Of a stretch of 64,000 bases of DNA, positions 46,092-61,178 are shown in pieces (position 1 is the stretch's first letter; each line of letters opens with the position of its first letter). The DNA comes from a bacterium. Its GTDB lineage: Bacteria > Desulfobacterota > Desulfocorpusculales > Desulfocorpusculum. The notes below the pieces were generated by a model. The model saw nothing but the letters and a program-made list of their open reading frames with translations. It had not been told where the DNA came from and ran no database searches. The position numbers were made by a program, and so were the translations under genes. The stretch lies in contig JBBFLE010000004.1 in NCBI GenBank assembly GCA_037481695.1, forward strand, positions 186,001 to 250,000. Reading direction: 5' to 3'.

Positions 46092-46761
46092 TTTGACGCC
46101 CTCCCTTCTTTACTCATTTGGACTAGGGAAGGCACCTGGGGGTTTAATCCTTGCCTGGAAAATATTTTGCCCAAGAAAAGCCACTATCCATGGCTTCCTG
46201 TTGGGCATTGCCCTGGCTGTGGCTTGGGTTCAAAGCCAGGCCGATACCAGGACCCCCCGCAGTTTTTCAGGAAAGGTAAGCGGTGTCCGATCAGGCCACA
46301 CACTCATAGTGCAGGAGGGGGACAGGACTCACAAGGTCAACTTGTACGGAGTTGTTTCTCCTTCCCCAGGGGCTCCTCAGGCAGAGAAAGCCAGGGCCTT
46401 CCTGGAGCAGATCGCCTTTGGAAGGATGGTAACAGTTGAGGCAGTTGCCCCTTTTAGCCCAAGGGTTTTGTACGCCTTCGTGCAGCTGGGAGATCAAAAC
46501 TTAAACGAAGAGATGATTAGACAGGGCCTGGCGTGGGTTAACCAAGAGGCATGTGCCATGGAGATCTGCCAAAGGTGGAAAACTTTGCAGGAGGAGGCCA
46601 AGGCCGCCCAACGTGGCATCTGGAGCGATCCATCCAAGGCTCCCATCCTGGAGAAAGGGCGTGGTAAGAGCCGTCCAAAGAGAAAAGGGTCAGACTTGCA
46701 TCTGACCCCTAAAGCTCCTTTGGCGTCCCCAACGGGATTTGAACCCGTGTTGCCGGCTTGA
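46060..46761 (+). CDS. Degenerate SNase-like exported protein
   Basis: A frame of 233 residues with an OB-fold like that of staphylococcal nuclease: VSGVRSGHTLIVQEGDRTHKVNLYGVVSPSP, then ARAFLEQIAFGRMVTVEA and NLNEEMIRQGLAWVNQEAC. The catalytic D-x-P-E of the family (YGIDAPE) reads YGVVSPS here, so the metal Asp and general-base Glu are both absent. The true start is uncertain; a membrane or signal helix (FLLGIALAVAWVQSQA) begins near residue 45. The C-terminus runs through a terminator and into the antisense of tRNA-Glu. Confidence 0.65.
   Translation: MTLKLLSSIFILTPSLLYSFGLGKAPGGLILAWKIFCPRKATIHGFLLGIALAVAWVQSQADTRTPRSFSGKVSGVRSGHTLIVQEGDRTHKVNLYGVVSPSPGAPQAEKARAFLEQIAFGRMVTVEAVAPFSPRVLYAFVQLGDQNLNEEMIRQGLAWVNQEACAMEICQRWKTLQEEAKAAQRGIWSDPSKAPILEKGRGKSRPKRKGSDLHLTPKAPLASPTGFEPVLPA
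46683..46708 (-). terminator. Terminator of the tRNA operon
   Basis: Read leftward after tRNA-Glu, GGGTCAGA (46701-46708 complement) pairs with TCTGACCC (46687-46694 complement), with a 6-nt loop, and is followed by TTTT. The perfect 8-bp stem plus T-run is a good intrinsic terminator. It lies within the C-terminal codons of the SNase-like frame on the other strand. Confidence 0.7.
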
Positions 46762-46798
46762 AAGACCGGTGTCCTGGGCCTAGCTGGACGATGGGGAC
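46721..46798 (-). tRNA. tRNA-Glu (anticodon TTC)
   Basis: A 78-nt cloverleaf: acceptor GTCCCCA/TGGGGAC, anticodon stem CCGGT/GCCGG with loop CTTTCAA (anticodon TTC), T-arm ACGGGTTCAAATCCCGT, and encoded CCA. It is the second tRNA of a two-gene unit. Confidence 0.93.
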
Positions 46799-46812
46799 TC
46801 ACATCAAACCAT

Positions 46813-46886
46813 TGGGCCGTGCTGGATTCGAACCAGCGGCTCTCTGCTTAAAAGGCAGATACTCTACCTGGCTGAGTTAACGGCCC
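46813..46886 (-). tRNA. tRNA-Lys (anticodon TTT)
   Basis: A cloverleaf with acceptor GGGCCGT/ACGGCCC, anticodon stem TCTGC/GCAGA with loop CTTTTAA (anticodon TTT), and T-arm CTGGTTCGAATCCAG. The discriminator is A and the CCA end is not encoded, unlike the tRNA-Glu gene 14 nt downstream. Confidence 0.93.
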
Positions 46887-54573: not shown

Positions 54574-55560
54574 TCATATCCAGCCCATTTCGCGATACCA
54601 GATATAAGTCTCCCTCAGCCCATCTTCCAATGAAATGGTAGGTTGGAAGCCCAGCTCCACTTTGCTCTTTTCAATGCTACAGGTCCAGCCTGGCTGGAGC
54701 ATCTCCTTGAGCTTTTCTCTATTGTAAAGAGGGGGCAGACCCAAGACCCAAGAAAAGGCTTCGGAAACGAGTGCTGCTGACCAGGCCACAAAAAAGGGAA
54801 CCCTTAGAACTCTTATATCCACCTCCATGATCTTTGCCAAAATCTGGGCCACCTGGCTCCAGGTGTGCACCTCACCATCTGAAACAGGGTATATTGACCC
54901 TGATGGCACATGGGCCATAGCAGCCAAAAGCATTGCCCTGACCAAGTCCCTCACGTGGATCATGCATATGTATCTGTCCTGAGCACCCAGGTTTATGAAC
55001 CATCCTTTCTTGACCATGCGAAAAAAGGCCAGCACATCTTTGTCCCTCGGGCCATACACAGCTGTGGGCCTGAGTATCACCACTGGGAGCTCAGATGCGA
55101 ATTTGCATGCCAAATCCTCGGCCCTGGCCTTGCTCAACCCGTAATGACTCACCGGACAGCAGGGCTCGGTTTCCCCCCTGGGACAGGATGGGGAGTTGGG
55201 ACCCCAGGCAGCCAGGGAGCTAAGAAGTATTACCCGCTGAGGAGGCTTTTTCATCTTTGTGCAGGCCTTAAGCAAATTCAGGGTTCCCAGTGTATTAGCC
55301 CTTATGTAAGAACTGAGACTTCTGGCTTTGGTGACTCCTGCCACATGGAAGACCCAGTCCATGCCCTCCAGGGAATTTTCCAGGACTCCATCTTGCTGTA
55401 GATCCCCTGTGGTTAGTTCCACATCCAGCCCTCGGACCCAGTTGAGGTTGCTGGTACTCCTGACCAAAATACGCACCTGGTGTCCATCCTGTAGTAGCGC
55501 TTCCACCAGGTGGCTTCCCACAAAACCTGTTGCTCCTGTTACAAAGGCCCTCAAAGCCAC
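54574..55560 (-). CDS. Extended SDR reductase/epimerase, CerR-like candidate
   Basis: A 328-residue NAD(P)-dependent extended short-chain dehydrogenase: nucleotide-binding VTGATGFVGSH at residues 7-17, HVAGVTKA, and the catalytic YGLSK (Tyr140, Lys144). The closest general type is 3-beta-hydroxysteroid dehydrogenase or dihydroflavonol reductase. In bacterial ceramide synthesis the keto group is reduced by an NAD-dependent epimerase-like enzyme (CerR); the divergent serine palmitoyltransferase-type gene makes that the leading hypothesis. A generic nucleotide-sugar role is less likely. Confidence 0.72.
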   Translation of the reverse strand: MALRAFVTGATGFVGSHLVEALLQDGHQVRILVRSTSNLNWVRGLDVELTTGDLQQDGVLENSLEGMDWVFHVAGVTKARSLSSYIRANTLGTLNLLKACTKMKKPPQRVILLSSLAAWGPNSPSCPRGETEPCCPVSHYGLSKARAEDLACKFASELPVVILRPTAVYGPRDKDVLAFFRMVKKGWFINLGAQDRYICMIHVRDLVRAMLLAAMAHVPSGSIYPVSDGEVHTWSQVAQILAKIMEVDIRVLRVPFFVAWSAALVSEAFSWVLGLPPLYNREKLKEMLQPGWTCSIEKSKVELGFQPTISLEDGLRETYIWYREMGWI

Positions 55561-55713
55561 CCCCCTTTGCCTTTATCAGGAATCCCCTGAGGCTGTATTT
55601 GTCTCTGCCCTTGGCCTTAAAGGCTTGGCACCCTTGGAATGCTGGTAGACTCCAGAGATTGTTGACCCAATCCTAGTCCCCAAAACTCTTGCCTTGCCTC
55701 ATCAAGAAATCAT

Positions 55714-55742
55714 CTAACGACCCCAAGCTCAGGGGGCGTTAG
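55714..55742. promoter_or_regulatory. Inverted repeat in the spt upstream region
   Basis: CTAACGACCCC and GGGGGCGTTAG form an 11-bp stem with one mismatch around a 7-nt loop, between the divergent reductase and spt genes. It could be an operator or a leader hairpin. The rest of 55561-56013 shows no gene. Confidence 0.4.
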
Positions 55743-56013
55743 CTGCCCAGGCGGGCTCCTGCCTCAGGAATCCAATCTGGGGAAAACTCATGATTTCACC
55801 CCTGCACCCAGGTGACCTCCAAACATTGCCATGTGCCATGGGGCCGGCTCCTCGTTGACAAAGCTCTGGCGCTTGAATAGAATTCACCAGCTTATCTGCC
55901 CAAATCGGCCTGAGCCTGCTACGGGCAAAAGGGCCTGGGCAAGCAACATTGTGAGCTGTTTGAAACCCCCAGGCAAGCTCTTGGAGACCTTGCCCAGAAT
56001 TGAGGAGCGCCTA

Positions 56014-57198
56014 ATGGACATCTTCGAGAAGTGCTGGAAATTCACCCAGGCAGCGGAAGCCAGGGCCTCGGGTTATTACCCCTATTTCATCCCCATAGAG
56101 TCGCAACAGGACACAGAAGTCCTTATCAACGGTAGACGCGTAATAATGATAGGCTCCAATAATTATCTGGGACTGACCACTCATCCCAAGGTGAAAGAAG
56201 CTGCGGCCGAGGCCCTCAGACGCTTTGGCACTAGCTGCACAGGTTCACGATTTCTCAACGGCACCATAGAGCTTCACGTGCAATTGGAGGAGAGATTGGC
56301 CAAATTCACCGGTAAGGAGGCTGCACTGGTTTTCAGCACGGGCTTCCAGACCAACCTGGGCACCATCTCAGCTTTGGTAGGACGCCACGACACCGTAATA
56401 ATAGACTATGATGACCATGCAAGCATCGTGGACGGTTGCCAGCTCTCCCACGGCAGAACCATCCGATTCCGCCACAATGACATGGCTGGTCTTCGCAGGG
56501 CCCTGCAGAAAGCCAACCCGAGAACAGGCAGACTGGTGGTGGTAGATGGTGTGTTCAGCATGGAGGGGGACATAGCCCCTCTACCTGAGATTGCAGCCTT
56601 GTGTAAAGAATTCGGTGCCCGATTGATGGTAGACGACGCACACTCCATAGGAGTGCTGGGAAAAAACGGCAGCGGCACAGCCTCTCATTTCGGGATGACC
56701 GACCAGGTGGATCTGATCATGGGTACATTTAGCAAGTCCTTCGCCTCCCTGGGTGGGTTCGTTTCAGCCAAGGCAGAAGTCATAGATTACATAAAGCACA
56801 TGTCTAGGGCTCTCATATTCAGCGCCTCCATGCCCCCAGCCTCCATAGCAGCCTGCCTGGCCTCCCTGGACATCATGGAAAAAGAACCCGAGAGAAGGGA
56901 AAGGCTCTGGCAGATAACTCGAAGGATGCATCGGGAATATAAAGCCATGGGACTCAATATCGGCAACACCCAAACCCCCATCATTCCCATCATAATAGGA
57001 GATGACCTCAAGGTTTTTGTTTTCTGGAGGCGGCTGCTGGAGGAAGGTGTCTTCGCAAATCCTGTGCGCAGCCCGGCTGTGCCGCCTGGAAGGGCATTGT
57101 TGAGAACCAGTTACATGGCCACCCATACTGACTCGCAGTTGGACAGAGTTTTGGAGGCCTTTCGAAAAGTAGGAAAGGAGTTGGGGGTCATATCTTGA
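56014..57198 (+). CDS. spt: Alpha-oxoamine synthase, serine palmitoyltransferase-like
   Basis: A 394-residue PLP enzyme of the family that condenses an amino acid with acyl-Co[14 protein letters not shown] (72-84), [11 protein letters not shown] (131-141), [10 protein letters not shown] with His210, and [11 protein letters not shown] with the PLP Lys241 are intact. BioF, Kbl and SPT share this fold; the neighbouring CerR-like and GNAT/YghO-like genes, and the absence of other biotin or threonine genes, favour SPT, giving 3-ketodihydrosphingosine from serine. ATG 56014 has GAGGAG upstream; the frame is open 61 codons further but those residues are unlike the family. Confidence 0.78.
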
Positions 57199-57475
57199 GA
57201 GTATCATGCCTCAGGCAATGGGACTCTGGGGCCTCATCGCTGAAGACAAGAGCATGTCCCTTTGTTCCTGTGGGCCAGGCTCCATTGGGAAGGGATGTTA
57301 GACAATAGCCTGGAAAAGGGCAATGAACAGAATTGTTTTGTCCGCTCCTTACAATGATGCTAGAGCTCTTTGCCCATGGATTGAAGAGCATCCAAAGCCA
57401 GGGCCATGAGGATTCTAGAAACTGGATGACTCCCTTCTGAGGTACAGGCCAGAAAACCTTTCCAGGAGGAAGGCT

Positions 57476-58597
57476 ATGCCAGGATCTTCTATTCGAGTGG
57501 AGGAGGTTGTAAACAGCAAACACAGAAGTGCTTTTCTGAAGTTTCCGTGGGTTGTGTATAGGCAGGACCCTTTTTGGGTGCCCCCCTTGCTCATGGAGCG
57601 CAAAGCCTTCATAGATCCCAAGAAAAACCCTTTTTTTCAGCATGCAGAAATAGCTCTTTTTTTGGCCCTGCAGGATGGGCATCCCGCAGGCAGGATAGCT
57701 GCTATAGTCAACCACAACCACAATAGATTTCACCAAGACCGAGTCGGCTTCTTTGGTTTGTTCGAATCCATCCATGATGAGCAGGTATCTCGGGCTCTAC
57801 TTGGAAGAGCAGCGGAATGGCTTCGCCAAAGGGGAATGGAAATCATGAGGGGCCCTGCCAGCTTTTCCACCAATGAGGAAATAGGTCTTCTGGTGGAGGG
57901 CTTCCAGGACAGCCCAATGATAATGATGCCCTACAACCCCCCCTATTATGCACAACTGTTGGAAAATTACGGCTTTCGCAAGGAAAAGGATCTTTACGCT
58001 TTCATCCGCACTGCAGAGGATATGCCTGAGCGCTTGTATAAACTGGCGGAAAAGTTGAAAGAGAAAAATCGATTTACTGTCAGAAAGCTGCGCATGAAGG
58101 AGCTAAAGCAAGAGATACTTCGCTTCAAGTCTGTCTATGAGTCAGCATGGGAGCGCAATTGGGGCTTCGTGCCCATGACCGAGGCTGAGATCGACCACAT
58201 GGCTTCTGAGTTAAAGAAAATACTGGATCCTGATCTTGTTTTTTTTGTAGAGGTTGAAGATAAGATCGTGGGGTTTTCCCTGACCCTGCCAGATGTCAAC
58301 CAGGCCCTCAAGAAAGTCAATGGCAGACTCTTTCCCACTGGTTTCATAAAGCTCATGTATCATTTTAAGAAGATCGATCAGGTCCGCGTTCTACTCCTGG
58401 GAGTGGCCCAGGGCTATCGCAGAAAAGGAATAGATGCAGTATTGTATCTTGAAACTTTCAAGGAAGGCATCAAGAAAGGATATAAAAGAGGGGAATTTTC
58501 ATGGATTCTAGAGGACAACGATGCCATGATCCGTCCCCTAGAGGCCATAGGTGCTAGCCGCTACAAGACCTACAGGGTATATGATCTGCCTTTGTGA
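57476..58597 (+). CDS. YghO-like GNAT protein, bacterial ceramide synthase candidate
   Basis: A 373-residue protein with a FPWVVYRQDPFWVPPLLMERK opening, a GPASFSTNEEIGLLVEGF mid-segment and a GNAT-type C-terminal half (LLGVAQGYRRKGIDAVLY, an acyl-CoA-binding loop). It matches the large YghO-type proteins; bacterial ceramide synthase (bCerS), which N-acylates the long-chain base, belongs to this group. AGGAGG precedes the ATG. It lies 277 bp after spt on the same strand and overlaps the convergent PAP2 gene by 28 bp. Confidence 0.72.
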   Translation: MPGSSIRVEEVVNSKHRSAFLKFPWVVYRQDPFWVPPLLMERKAFIDPKKNPFFQHAEIALFLALQDGHPAGRIAAIVNHNHNRFHQDRVGFFGLFESIHDEQVSRALLGRAAEWLRQRGMEIMRGPASFSTNEEIGLLVEGFQDSPMIMMPYNPPYYAQLLENYGFRKEKDLYAFIRTAEDMPERLYKLAEKLKEKNRFTVRKLRMKELKQEILRFKSVYESAWERNWGFVPMTEAEIDHMASELKKILDPDLVFFVEVEDKIVGFSLTLPDVNQALKKVNGRLFPTGFIKLMYHFKKIDQVRVLLLGVAQGYRRKGIDAVLYLETFKEGIKKGYKRGEFSWILEDNDAMIRPLEAIGASRYKTYRVYDLPL

Positions 58598-59508
58598 GAG
58601 AGCTGTTCTTGAGGGCTTTGCCCTGAATCTACCGGGGTGGCCCTCCACGGTAGCTCTTCTTGGGGCAACCATCTCCTCAAGAGGGAGGCCAGCCAGCCTG
58701 AGACAAGGGCCAGTAGCACGCCTGCCATGACATCCACAACGTAGTGATAGCGAAGATAAACGGTGCTGAAAACCAGGCTTGTGACCACCACCAAATAGGC
58801 CGGAAAAGCCCTACGGCAATAGCGCCAAACATAGTAAAGGACCAACAGGCTTATCCCCACATGGCCGCTGGGAAAGGCATCCCTTTGCAAGAGCTCCAGC
58901 CTGTCCAGAGACTCCCTGATCCAGTTGGTCAGCCATAGCCCCTCCAGCGCACGGCTCTGCAGATGGGCTATTTCGAAACGTGGGCCCAAGGCCGGAAATG
59001 CAAAATAACCCAGATAAGAGATGTAAAAAGCGCTCACCACTCCCACCATTGCAGCCTGAAAACCCTCCCAGTTGCGGCTGCGCCACAAGAGGAGGCCCAG
59101 CAAGATGGGGAGGAAATAAAAGGTGGTATATATGATCTGCAGGTATTCGGTAAGCAACGGGTGCATGTACTGCTCGAGCCACACGGTGGGATGCACTCCG
59201 AACAGGGCAAAATCCCATTCCACAAATAGCCCGTCCAGGTCTTTGGGATTGATGGGGTGAACCAGATAGTGGAGCTCCCTGAAGGCCAAGGGGATGCTTA
59301 TGATGTGGTACCAGGTTGCCAGATGCATCCAAAGCTTGGATGGATTCTGGTGGGATTTCCACAAGATCCCCAAGATGGCCGAGATCCAGGCCAAGTGAAG
59401 AAGAGCATGGAACCATGCATCTTCCACCCGTTCTCGAAACAGTATGATCAGAGACCCCACGCATCCCAGATAGAAAAGGGTCACCAGGTCCTGCGGTCGC
59501 AACTTCAT
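58570..59508 (-). CDS. Aur1/PAP2-like membrane phosphotransferase or phosphatase
   Basis: A 312-residue protein with about six membrane helices and the PAP2 core: FPALGPRF (residues 171-178), AFPSGHVGIS (211-220) and YLRYHYVVDVMAG (251-263, His255 and Asp259). GPR plus FPS-GH plus the HYxxD helix is the pattern of the inositol-phosphorylceramide synthase (Aur1/Ipt1) branch. Next to spt and the ceramide synthase candidate, it may add a phospho-headgroup to ceramide, or simply dephosphorylate a lipid. It overlaps the SAM hydrolase gene by four bases. Confidence 0.75.
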   Translation of the reverse strand: MKLRPQDLVTLFYLGCVGSLIILFRERVEDAWFHALLHLAWISAILGILWKSHQNPSKLWMHLATWYHIISIPLAFRELHYLVHPINPKDLDGLFVEWDFALFGVHPTVWLEQYMHPLLTEYLQIIYTTFYFLPILLGLLLWRSRNWEGFQAAMVGVVSAFYISYLGYFAFPALGPRFEIAHLQSRALEGLWLTNWIRESLDRLELLQRDAFPSGHVGISLLVLYYVWRYCRRAFPAYLVVVTSLVFSTVYLRYHYVVDVMAGVLLALVSGWLASLLRRWLPQEELPWRATPVDSGQSPQEQLSHKGRSYTL

Positions 59509-60302: not shown

Positions 60303-60473
60303 CCATCGGACCTCCAAGTGCTCCCCTGTGTCCCCCCCACCGAGCAAACCACTGTGGCGGATCTTAGGAAAACCAGGCGGCAGTGTCAAGCTTCGGGCTT
60401 TGCTTGACAGTGTAGCCCAAGCCCCCTAGCATCCAATGGTGGAAAAGATTCAAAGAGCAGCGAGAGGTTTTCC

Positions 60474-61178
60474 ATGAGTCTCAAGGCAGACCTTTATCTT
60501 AACCGCACAGATCCACTTAGGTACATGAGACATAGTGACTGCGAACAATGCGGCTTTTCATCTTGTTCCCAGTGGCTTGAGAAACTCAAAAGGGGAGAAG
60601 CCAGGCTCCAGGATTGCCCCACCTTGGAGCCGGGGCAAAGCCATGCCCTGCAAGTCTTTCTTTCCCTTGGGCAGCTTCTCCCAGATGTGGAGATCACCCA
60701 ACACCCCGTAGCAGGAGTCACTGGAAGGCTCGAAATCAACGAGCCAGGGCCAGAATCCCCATTGCTTGTAACGGGCAATGCTATTCAAACAGAGGAAGTG
60801 GTGCTGGCAGTGCTTTCCACCACAGACGCCCCTTTTCACCTGCTCTTTGTGGACACCCAAGGTCATACCGTGGACATGGCCCTCATTTACCAGACCTTTA
60901 CTCCCGAGGCTGTGGTTAAGGCCTTGGAGGGCTCTGGGCTGGATTCCTTGCTCTCACACAAGGAGTTGATCATTCCTGGTCTGGCAGCCCCACTGAAGGC
61001 TCCATTGGAGAGAATGAGCGGATGGAAAGTCACCGTTGGCCCTGTTTGCATAGGAGAGCTGCCACTTTTCTTTGGGTCTGACTGGAGCAGGCCCTCTGAG
61101 AAGAAATCCCAGGATATCCTCAATTCTGTGGGATCCATGGACCTGCCGGGCTCTGGTTCGGGGAGGGAAACAACATGA
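60474..61178 (+). CDS. Mini corrinoid Fe-S protein-like (CdhE/AcsC-type ends)
   Basis: A 234-residue protein. The N-terminus has the Cys4 pattern CEQCGFSSC...DCP (Cys23, 26, 31, 48) that binds the 4Fe-4S cluster in the large subunit of the corrinoid iron-sulfur protein (AcsC/CdhE). The second half (VTGNAIQTEEVVLAVLS, then HKELIIPGLAAPLKAPLER and WKVTVGPVCIGELP) corresponds to that protein's C-terminal domain. The TIM-barrel between them is missing. It is co-translated with an AsmA gene (4-nt overlap). A role in methyl or corrinoid handling is possible; no other Wood-Ljungdahl gene lies nearby. Confidence 0.7.
   Translation: MSLKADLYLNRTDPLRYMRHSDCEQCGFSSCSQWLEKLKRGEARLQDCPTLEPGQSHALQVFLSLGQLLPDVEITQHPVAGVTGRLEINEPGPESPLLVTGNAIQTEEVVLAVLSTTDAPFHLLFVDTQGHTVDMALIYQTFTPEAVVKALEGSGLDSLLSHKELIIPGLAAPLKAPLERMSGWKVTVGPVCIGELPLFFGSDWSRPSEKKSQDILNSVGSMDLPGSGSGRETT

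Follow-up and report, generated by a model that had tools for sequence, protein, structure and literature searches.

The large subunit of the corrinoid/iron-sulfur protein (CFeSP), termed AcsC or CdhE, has an N-terminal iron-sulfur (FeS) domain and a C-terminal cobamide-binding domain, and between them a TIM barrel that forms the pairing contact with the small subunit. What kind of protein remains when the barrel is absent? The question is raised by a short gene in a 64,000-nucleotide stretch of DNA from a bacterium of the Desulfobacterota (Desulfocorpusculum; contig JBBFLE010000004.1, positions 186,001–250,000), here termed the window. The initial annotation, made from the sequence alone, had described a protein of AcsC/CdhE type without the barrel, co-translated with an AsmA gene and far from any acetyl-CoA synthase gene, and had offered two roles for it: a free-standing Fe-S activator or a corrinoid-binding module with a new partner.

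Architecture and fold of the short protein

The gene (60474–61178, + strand) encodes 234 residues and is defined by its open reading frame, Pfam matches, PDB match and structural match. It starts with ATG, six bases downstream of the sequence GAGAGG (60462–60467, +), which was read directly and is a likely ribosome-binding site by consensus resemblance only. The FeS domain (PF04060) is matched at residues 21–49 (60534–60620, +; 29.9 bits, Pfam cut-off 23) and contains Cys23, Cys26, Cys31 and Cys48, spaced CX2CX4CX16C as in CFeSP. The Pfam profile PF03599 (CdhD) matches residues 76–192 with 58.2 bits (cut-off 24.8), and the match takes in positions 263–379 of the 387 in the profile, i.e. the C-terminal part only. 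The linker between the two matches measures 26 residues and the TIM barrel is absent.

In a comparison with PDB sequences, the best solved relatives are CFeSP large subunits (2h9a_A, E = 1.2e-18). Relative to 2h9a_A, approximately 245 residues are missing between the two parts, which align at offsets of −6 and +239; the four cysteines align with those of 2h9a_A without gaps, the N-terminal match alone being weak (8.4 bits). NCBIfam ranks CdhE first (NF003195; 98.5 bits, cut-off 306), followed by the Hgc models (NF040863 and NF043039), HgcAB-like proteins with 73.2 bits (cut-off 285) and HgcA with 54.1 bits (cut-off 275), all of them below cut-off. Neither an ASKHA ATPase domain nor a radical-SAM domain is matched in the window protein (Pfam and NCBIfam, E ≤ 1), PADLOC gives no match, and a transmembrane segment was not found, the top 19-residue Kyte–Doolittle mean being 1.43, from residue 108 within the corrinoid domain.

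An AlphaFold2 model of the window protein, built from 32 relatives, has a mean pLDDT of 89.9 and a pTM of 0.83, with low values only past residue 210. Foldseek returns six PDB matches at E < 0.001, of which five are chains of CFeSP and one is 9a0b, a deposited model of HgcAB. VIA-align superimposes residues 77–202 of the model on residues 316–441 of 2h9a_A (Z 19.3, rmsd 1.4 Å over 126 residues, 32% identity), and the model on the HgcA model 9a0b_A with Z 12.5 and 3.0 Å over 134 residues. The matches to structures of Mmp10/DUF512 type (9cg1, Z 6.3; 7qbs, Z 5.4) do not rise above what common folds give; rows past rank six, which lie at that level, are not used as evidence. Residues 76–204 (60699–61085, +) thus have the fold of a CFeSP-type cobamide-binding domain, as judged from the C-terminal part of PF03599 and the superposition of the model. 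A chance resemblance is excluded because of the PDB match, the structural Z-score and the existence of homologous short frames in other genomes, whose scores are clearly separated from those of CdhE. The partial PF03599 match, the short linker and the superposition on 2h9a_A bear out the description of an AcsC/CdhE-like protein without TIM barrel; a Cys4 motif and the AcsC/CdhE C-domain do lie together within 234 residues (Pfam, the cysteine spacing, the Z-score), and the C-terminal half of the predicted structure superimposes on the CdhE domain.

Distribution, phylogeny and gene neighbours

The genome from which the window comes holds a full-length CdhE (PF03599 positions 2–386), a CdhD-type match and its sole match to CdhC, the acetyl-CoA synthase, all on contig C18. 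The short gene sits on contig C4, which confirms the distance from any acetyl-CoA synthase gene. The short form is present in eight of 59 genomes, this one included. We searched profile A1 (11 rows) against 395 genomes of the phylum, and found the window type, here called type A, in 30 of them. The copies are near full length in 28; partial copies occur in G107 (two pieces, contig C205) and G233 (a C-terminal piece only, contig C45). The weakest best type A hit per genome has an E-value of 2.4e-40, whereas that of the best CdhE is 6.1e-25; the CdhE matches are confined to the C-part of the profile and lie in frames that mostly measure about 450 residues. A divergent type, termed type B, was detected in two of the 395 genomes (E = 2.7e-35 and 8.5e-34).

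The type A genomes belong to families f1 (3 genomes), f2 (3), f7 (11), f39 (6), f51 (5), f63 (1) and, doubtfully, f18 (1). The single f18 copy, in G119, lies near a contig end, with its start at base 92, and the other four f18 genomes in the survey have no short form, so that the family assignment of G119 may be a binning error. Three further loci, among them one with the same sequence as the G190 copy, lie in records named 'Deltaproteobacteria bacterium', and a fourth locus is a full CdhE. The 573-residue frame of G077 (locus L080) looks like an open-frame extension and not a fusion, because the conserved start MLRADLY lies within it. In a second group, 301 genomes from the phylum to which a Thermoflexia genome belongs (presumably Chloroflexota), no short form was found at E ≤ 1e-15 among the 50 matches listed, all of which have frames of 370–599 residues and start no earlier than model position 55. 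No title or abstract in the literature searches made is about a stand-alone or truncated form of this kind.

Type A is a separate family under purifying selection, beside CdhE and HgcA. The dN/dS ratio is 0.08–0.39 in 12 pairs and in both halves of the protein, with some dS values very low or saturated. A tree was built from 85 C-domains (two type B, described below, 26 type A, 43 CdhE and 14 Hgc); the program cautions that its branches are long and its columns few. In this tree, each of the four groups forms one side of a branch, with support of 91/97 for type A. When the columns of the cap helix and of residues 191–196 are removed, support is 99/90 for type A, 100/100 for CdhE, 99/91 for Hgc and 99/95 for type B. 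A joint clade of types A and B has support of 96/85 in the full tree and is absent from the best tree without the motif columns, where the AU test does not reject it (p = 0.186); a common origin of the two types is thus neither demonstrated nor refuted. Among the Hgc sequences, L105, L109, L110 and L111 are HgcAB-like, have the cap motif NVWCA and branch apart from the other ten; L105 and L109 have a C-terminal ferredoxin-like part.

A full CdhE accompanies the short form in 28 of 32 genomes. Those without it are G042, G080 and G317, which have a CdhD-type match, and G233, which is 78% complete; a full CdhE or a CdhD-type match is thus present in 31 of 32. CdhC is matched, in some cases weakly (E of approximately 1e-11 to 1e-15), in 267 genomes out of 395, and in 28 of the 32 that have a short form. 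No enrichment with the acetyl-CoA pathway is claimed from these figures, given the dependence between clades and the fragmentary state of several genomes.

In the window, the TGA of the short gene overlaps by four bases the ATG of an AsmA family gene (PF05170; 61175–63151, +), the end of which is in turn overlapped by an HD-domain gene (PF13023; 63148–63801, +). The upstream neighbour is divergent and encodes a SAM hydroxide adenosyltransferase (PF01887/PF20257; 59505–60389, −). The same AsmA cluster is next to the short gene in all three f1 genomes, with the HD gene following in two; the HD-gene cluster is also present in L039. Co-translation with AsmA, as initially annotated, is therefore upheld by the overlap and by all f1 genomes but is local to this one family: the link occurs in no examined locus of other genome families.

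Elsewhere, the neighbours differ. In families f7 and f51, the next gene encodes a single-domain CheY-like receiver, followed by a GlgC-like nucleotidyltransferase, in 12/12 loci (12 of the 16 carrier genomes were examined), and a histidine phosphatase of the same cluster is nearby in eight loci. This conserved order is seen at L041:6069–10289, L081–L085 and L092–L096, the domains being assigned by Pfam on one representative, L041. The receiver is also present in two of the three named records; in L032 the nucleotidyltransferase follows, although the ORF picker took an overlapping frame on the opposite strand. The f39 loci have a convergent neighbour (4/4), and the f2 and f63 loci have no neighbours in common. 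The comparison of neighbours that had been proposed alongside the genome search accordingly reveals settings that differ between genome families and no partner common to all type A operons, and the type A neighbours scanned, which represent part of the loci, include no corrinoid gene.

Other features of the window include a cluster at 54574–59508 that resembles bacterial sphingolipid synthesis and may serve this function. It comprises genes for an epimerase-like protein (54574–55560), a serine-palmitoyltransferase-like protein (55831–57198; NF047600, 576 bits, under the cut-off of 640), a GNAT-like protein of 373 residues (57476–58597) and a PAP2 phosphatase (58570–59508). Two adjacent tRNA genes (Rfam RF00005) lie at 46724–46886 (−).

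A second short form, type B (L087, L155 and others), also consists of an FeS domain and a C-domain without the barrel; L087 and L088 are 31–33% identical to the window protein. Type B occurs in six of the 18 genomes of the order of G329, all of family f56. All six f56 loci have genes for a sensor kinase and a sigma-54-type regulator upstream and mtaA downstream. In L087, L153, L155 and L156, mtaA is followed by mtaC and a complete mtaB, and then by cobW, a gene for a 190-residue protein and a gene for a RamA-type activase; the contig of L152 stops within mtaB and that of L154 past mtaA. The activase of L155, the operon of which spans L155:3–12284, matches TIGR04270 with 540.6 bits (cut-off 500). 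In part of the f56 loci, the gene families were assigned by tblastn. L087 has a gene for an AmiS/UreI-like protein between mtaB and cobW. In a second family, type B is found in two of 39 genomes, outside any mta operon, so that the association with mta genes is limited to a single lineage so far. The type B gene of G275 (L088:387–6356) adjoins genes for a low-molecular-weight phosphatase, a rhodanese, a CCG-domain protein and an ArsM-like methyltransferase. Plasmid records, which were searched with the type B protein only, yielded a single match (Acetoanaerobium), which takes in 52% of the query.

The putative cofactor site

In HgcA, according to an excerpt of the published account (PMC7305189), the cobamide is contacted by the side chains of Thr60 and Thr66 at its tail and by the backbones of Val91 and Ala153, with Cys93 of the cap helix below the cobalt. 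The motif T100-x-N102-x3-T106 of the window protein (60771–60791, +) places T100 and T106 on Thr60 and Thr66, a mapping of residue numbers that is our own reading. The type A census has 30 rows, 28 from survey genomes and two from named records; positions 100 and 106 are Thr or Ser in all 30. N102 and G130 are likewise found in 30/30, and in all 85 rows when CdhE and Hgc are included.

The cap helix, V133–I138 (60870–60887, +), is a helix in the model and contains the invariant pair D134-M135. M135 occupies the axial position: ungapped PDB matches set it on residue 375 of 4djd_C and residue 378 of 9fzy_F. In CFeSP, a Thr of the cap helix is the side chain nearest to cobalt, and Thr375 and Thr378 are cited in the available part of a review (PMC13331322), the legend of which, as read, assigns the two numbers to the two structures in swapped order. 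The axial residue is Met in type A (26/26 in the tree set, 30/30 in the larger census), Thr in 42/43 CdhE and Cys in 14/14 Hgc. Type B has Asn here in 8/8 loci and all four FeS cysteines in 8/8; the Asp before the axial position is kept, and Ser replaces Cys192 in 2/2. The small residues that follow the axial position in CdhE (WAAGK) and most HgcA (AAGK) are replaced in type A by the bulkier M/L, I/V, Y/F and R/E/K. Also invariant in type A are W204 and, within the motif GPxCxxELPLF (residues 189–199; 61038–61070, +), C192 and E195 (30/30 rows).

The window protein resembles the CFeSP large subunit in the order of its domains and in its cysteine spacing, but has Met for the Thr nearest to cobalt and falls on a separate branch; its gene is not beside acs or cdh genes in its own genome, and its relatives often lack Fe-S cysteines. 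HgcA and HgcAB-like proteins share the corrinoid-domain fold without TIM barrel, and the motif GPxxxxDLPxFL at the end of HgcA is similar to that of type A. Unlike HgcA, however, the window protein has the cap sequence TVDMALIYQTF in place of NVWC(A)AGK with its axial Cys, an additional N-terminal FeS domain, no transmembrane segment that we could find and no HgcB neighbour. The class 2 cobalamin radical-SAM proteins Mmp10 and DUF512 are reported to have a CFeSP-like cobalamin fold and a hydrophobic residue under the cobalt, namely a cap-helix Leu (PMC13331322, in the part available); they differ from the window protein in their radical-SAM domain, and the structural match is weak. The reductive activators RACo and RamA differ in having an ASKHA ATPase domain.

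Possible roles of the short forms

The reading that we favour, at about even chances, is that type A is a compact, free-standing and soluble cobamide-binding protein of the CFeSP fold, with Met under the cobalt and a partner outside its own operon. The cobamide would be held base-off, with its nucleotide tail in the conserved pocket formed by Thr/Ser 100 and 106. Met135, on the cap helix under the cobalt, might act as a thioether ligand that coordinates oxidized cobalt states and leaves upon reduction, or as a hydrophobic plug that excludes water, as the Leu of Mmp10 is reported to do. The protein could then act as a small mobile corrinoid carrier that supplies a partner encoded elsewhere with a methyl group or with the cobamide as such. 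Several observations weigh against this reading: the bulkier residues after the axial position could fill the corrin site, the conserved Thr/Ser, Asn and Gly could serve the fold and not the cofactor, and the scanned neighbours offer no candidate partner.

A broader proposal is more tentative, and we hold it at clearly less than even chances. Type A would be a further natural family of the CFeSP fold, Met-capped, that has lost the barrel throughout and the Fe-S cluster in several lineages, and type B would be an Asn-capped short form, serving methanol:corrinoid methyl transfer with MtaABC and RamA. For type B, a role with MtaC as activator or methyl acceptor is a live idea in the f56 lineage only.

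The same bulky residues could instead mean that the cofactor has been lost, and that the fold now forms a scaffold, a sensor or a protein for some other ligand, with D134, M135, C192, E195 and W204 as marks of the new function. This explanation, which we regard as possible but rather unlikely, would fit the invariance of C192, E195 and W204, the type A neighbours scanned, with no corrinoid gene, and the CheY-like receiver in the 12 examined f7/f51 loci. It is harder to reconcile with Thr or Ser at both tail-contact positions in every row and with the cap helix retained in the model, and also with the hydrophobic Leu that is reported under the cobalt in Mmp10 and DUF512, which have this fold (PMC13331322, in the part available).

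The role of a free-standing Fe-S activator, which would reduce the corrinoid of CFeSP or of another protein, is improbable. The complete motif of the window protein itself speaks for it, as does type B, with its four cysteines, upstream of mtaA–mtaC–mtaB, cobW and the RamA-type activase in one family. Across type A, however, all four cysteines are kept in only eight of the 30 rows; three are kept in nine, two in eight, one in two and none in three, and the C-domain is conserved throughout. Incomplete sets are those of families f7, f51 and f2, of the named records and of a single f39 row. The N-terminal region is under purifying selection in these rows too and is therefore functional there, but not as a four-Cys cluster. 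The Fe-S cluster would thus be an accessory that was lost in several lineages, and not the core of the function, and the window protein has no match to the ASKHA ATPase domain of RACo and RamA. As the family function, the activator put forward in the initial annotation is not supported; the corrinoid-binding module with a new partner is better supported, judging by the conserved residues at the tail positions.

Less probable again is an alternative CFeSP large subunit that pairs with the small subunit AcsD/CdhD. The C-domain of type A has its homologue in the part of CFeSP that lies over the corrin on the barrel of AcsD, and nearly all short-form genomes have a full CdhE or CdhD-type match, but the protein lacks the barrel needed for pairing, its gene and cdhCDE lie on different contigs in the own genome, and Met takes the place of the axial Thr. 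A decayed or internally deleted cdhE copy, suggested by an architecture equal to CdhE minus the barrel and by the partial copies in G107 and G233, is barely credible, and a pseudogene or CdhE fragment is rejected, given the occurrence in several genome families, the dN/dS values, the family's own invariant residues and its branch outside CdhE.

We also considered a corrinoid donor to a core methionine synthase of MesB type, an idea that derives from the CFeSP-fed enzymes described in the part of PMC7857596 available. For the own genome this candidate is rejected: PF01717 has no match there, while it matches 10 of 14 controls.

For the annotation of genomes such as these, it follows that a match to PF03599 or PF04060 need not mean CdhE or HgcA. 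The short forms are small proteins without barrel or membrane part, and should be easier to study. The corrinoid domain of CFeSP is termed the oldest cobalamin fold in the review cited above (PMC13331322, in the part available). The residue under the cobalt varies with the chemistry: acetyl-CoA synthesis goes with Thr, mercury methylation with Cys and Mmp10 with Leu; if the reading favoured here is true, a family with invariant Met and a short form with Asn would be two more natural steps in that series.
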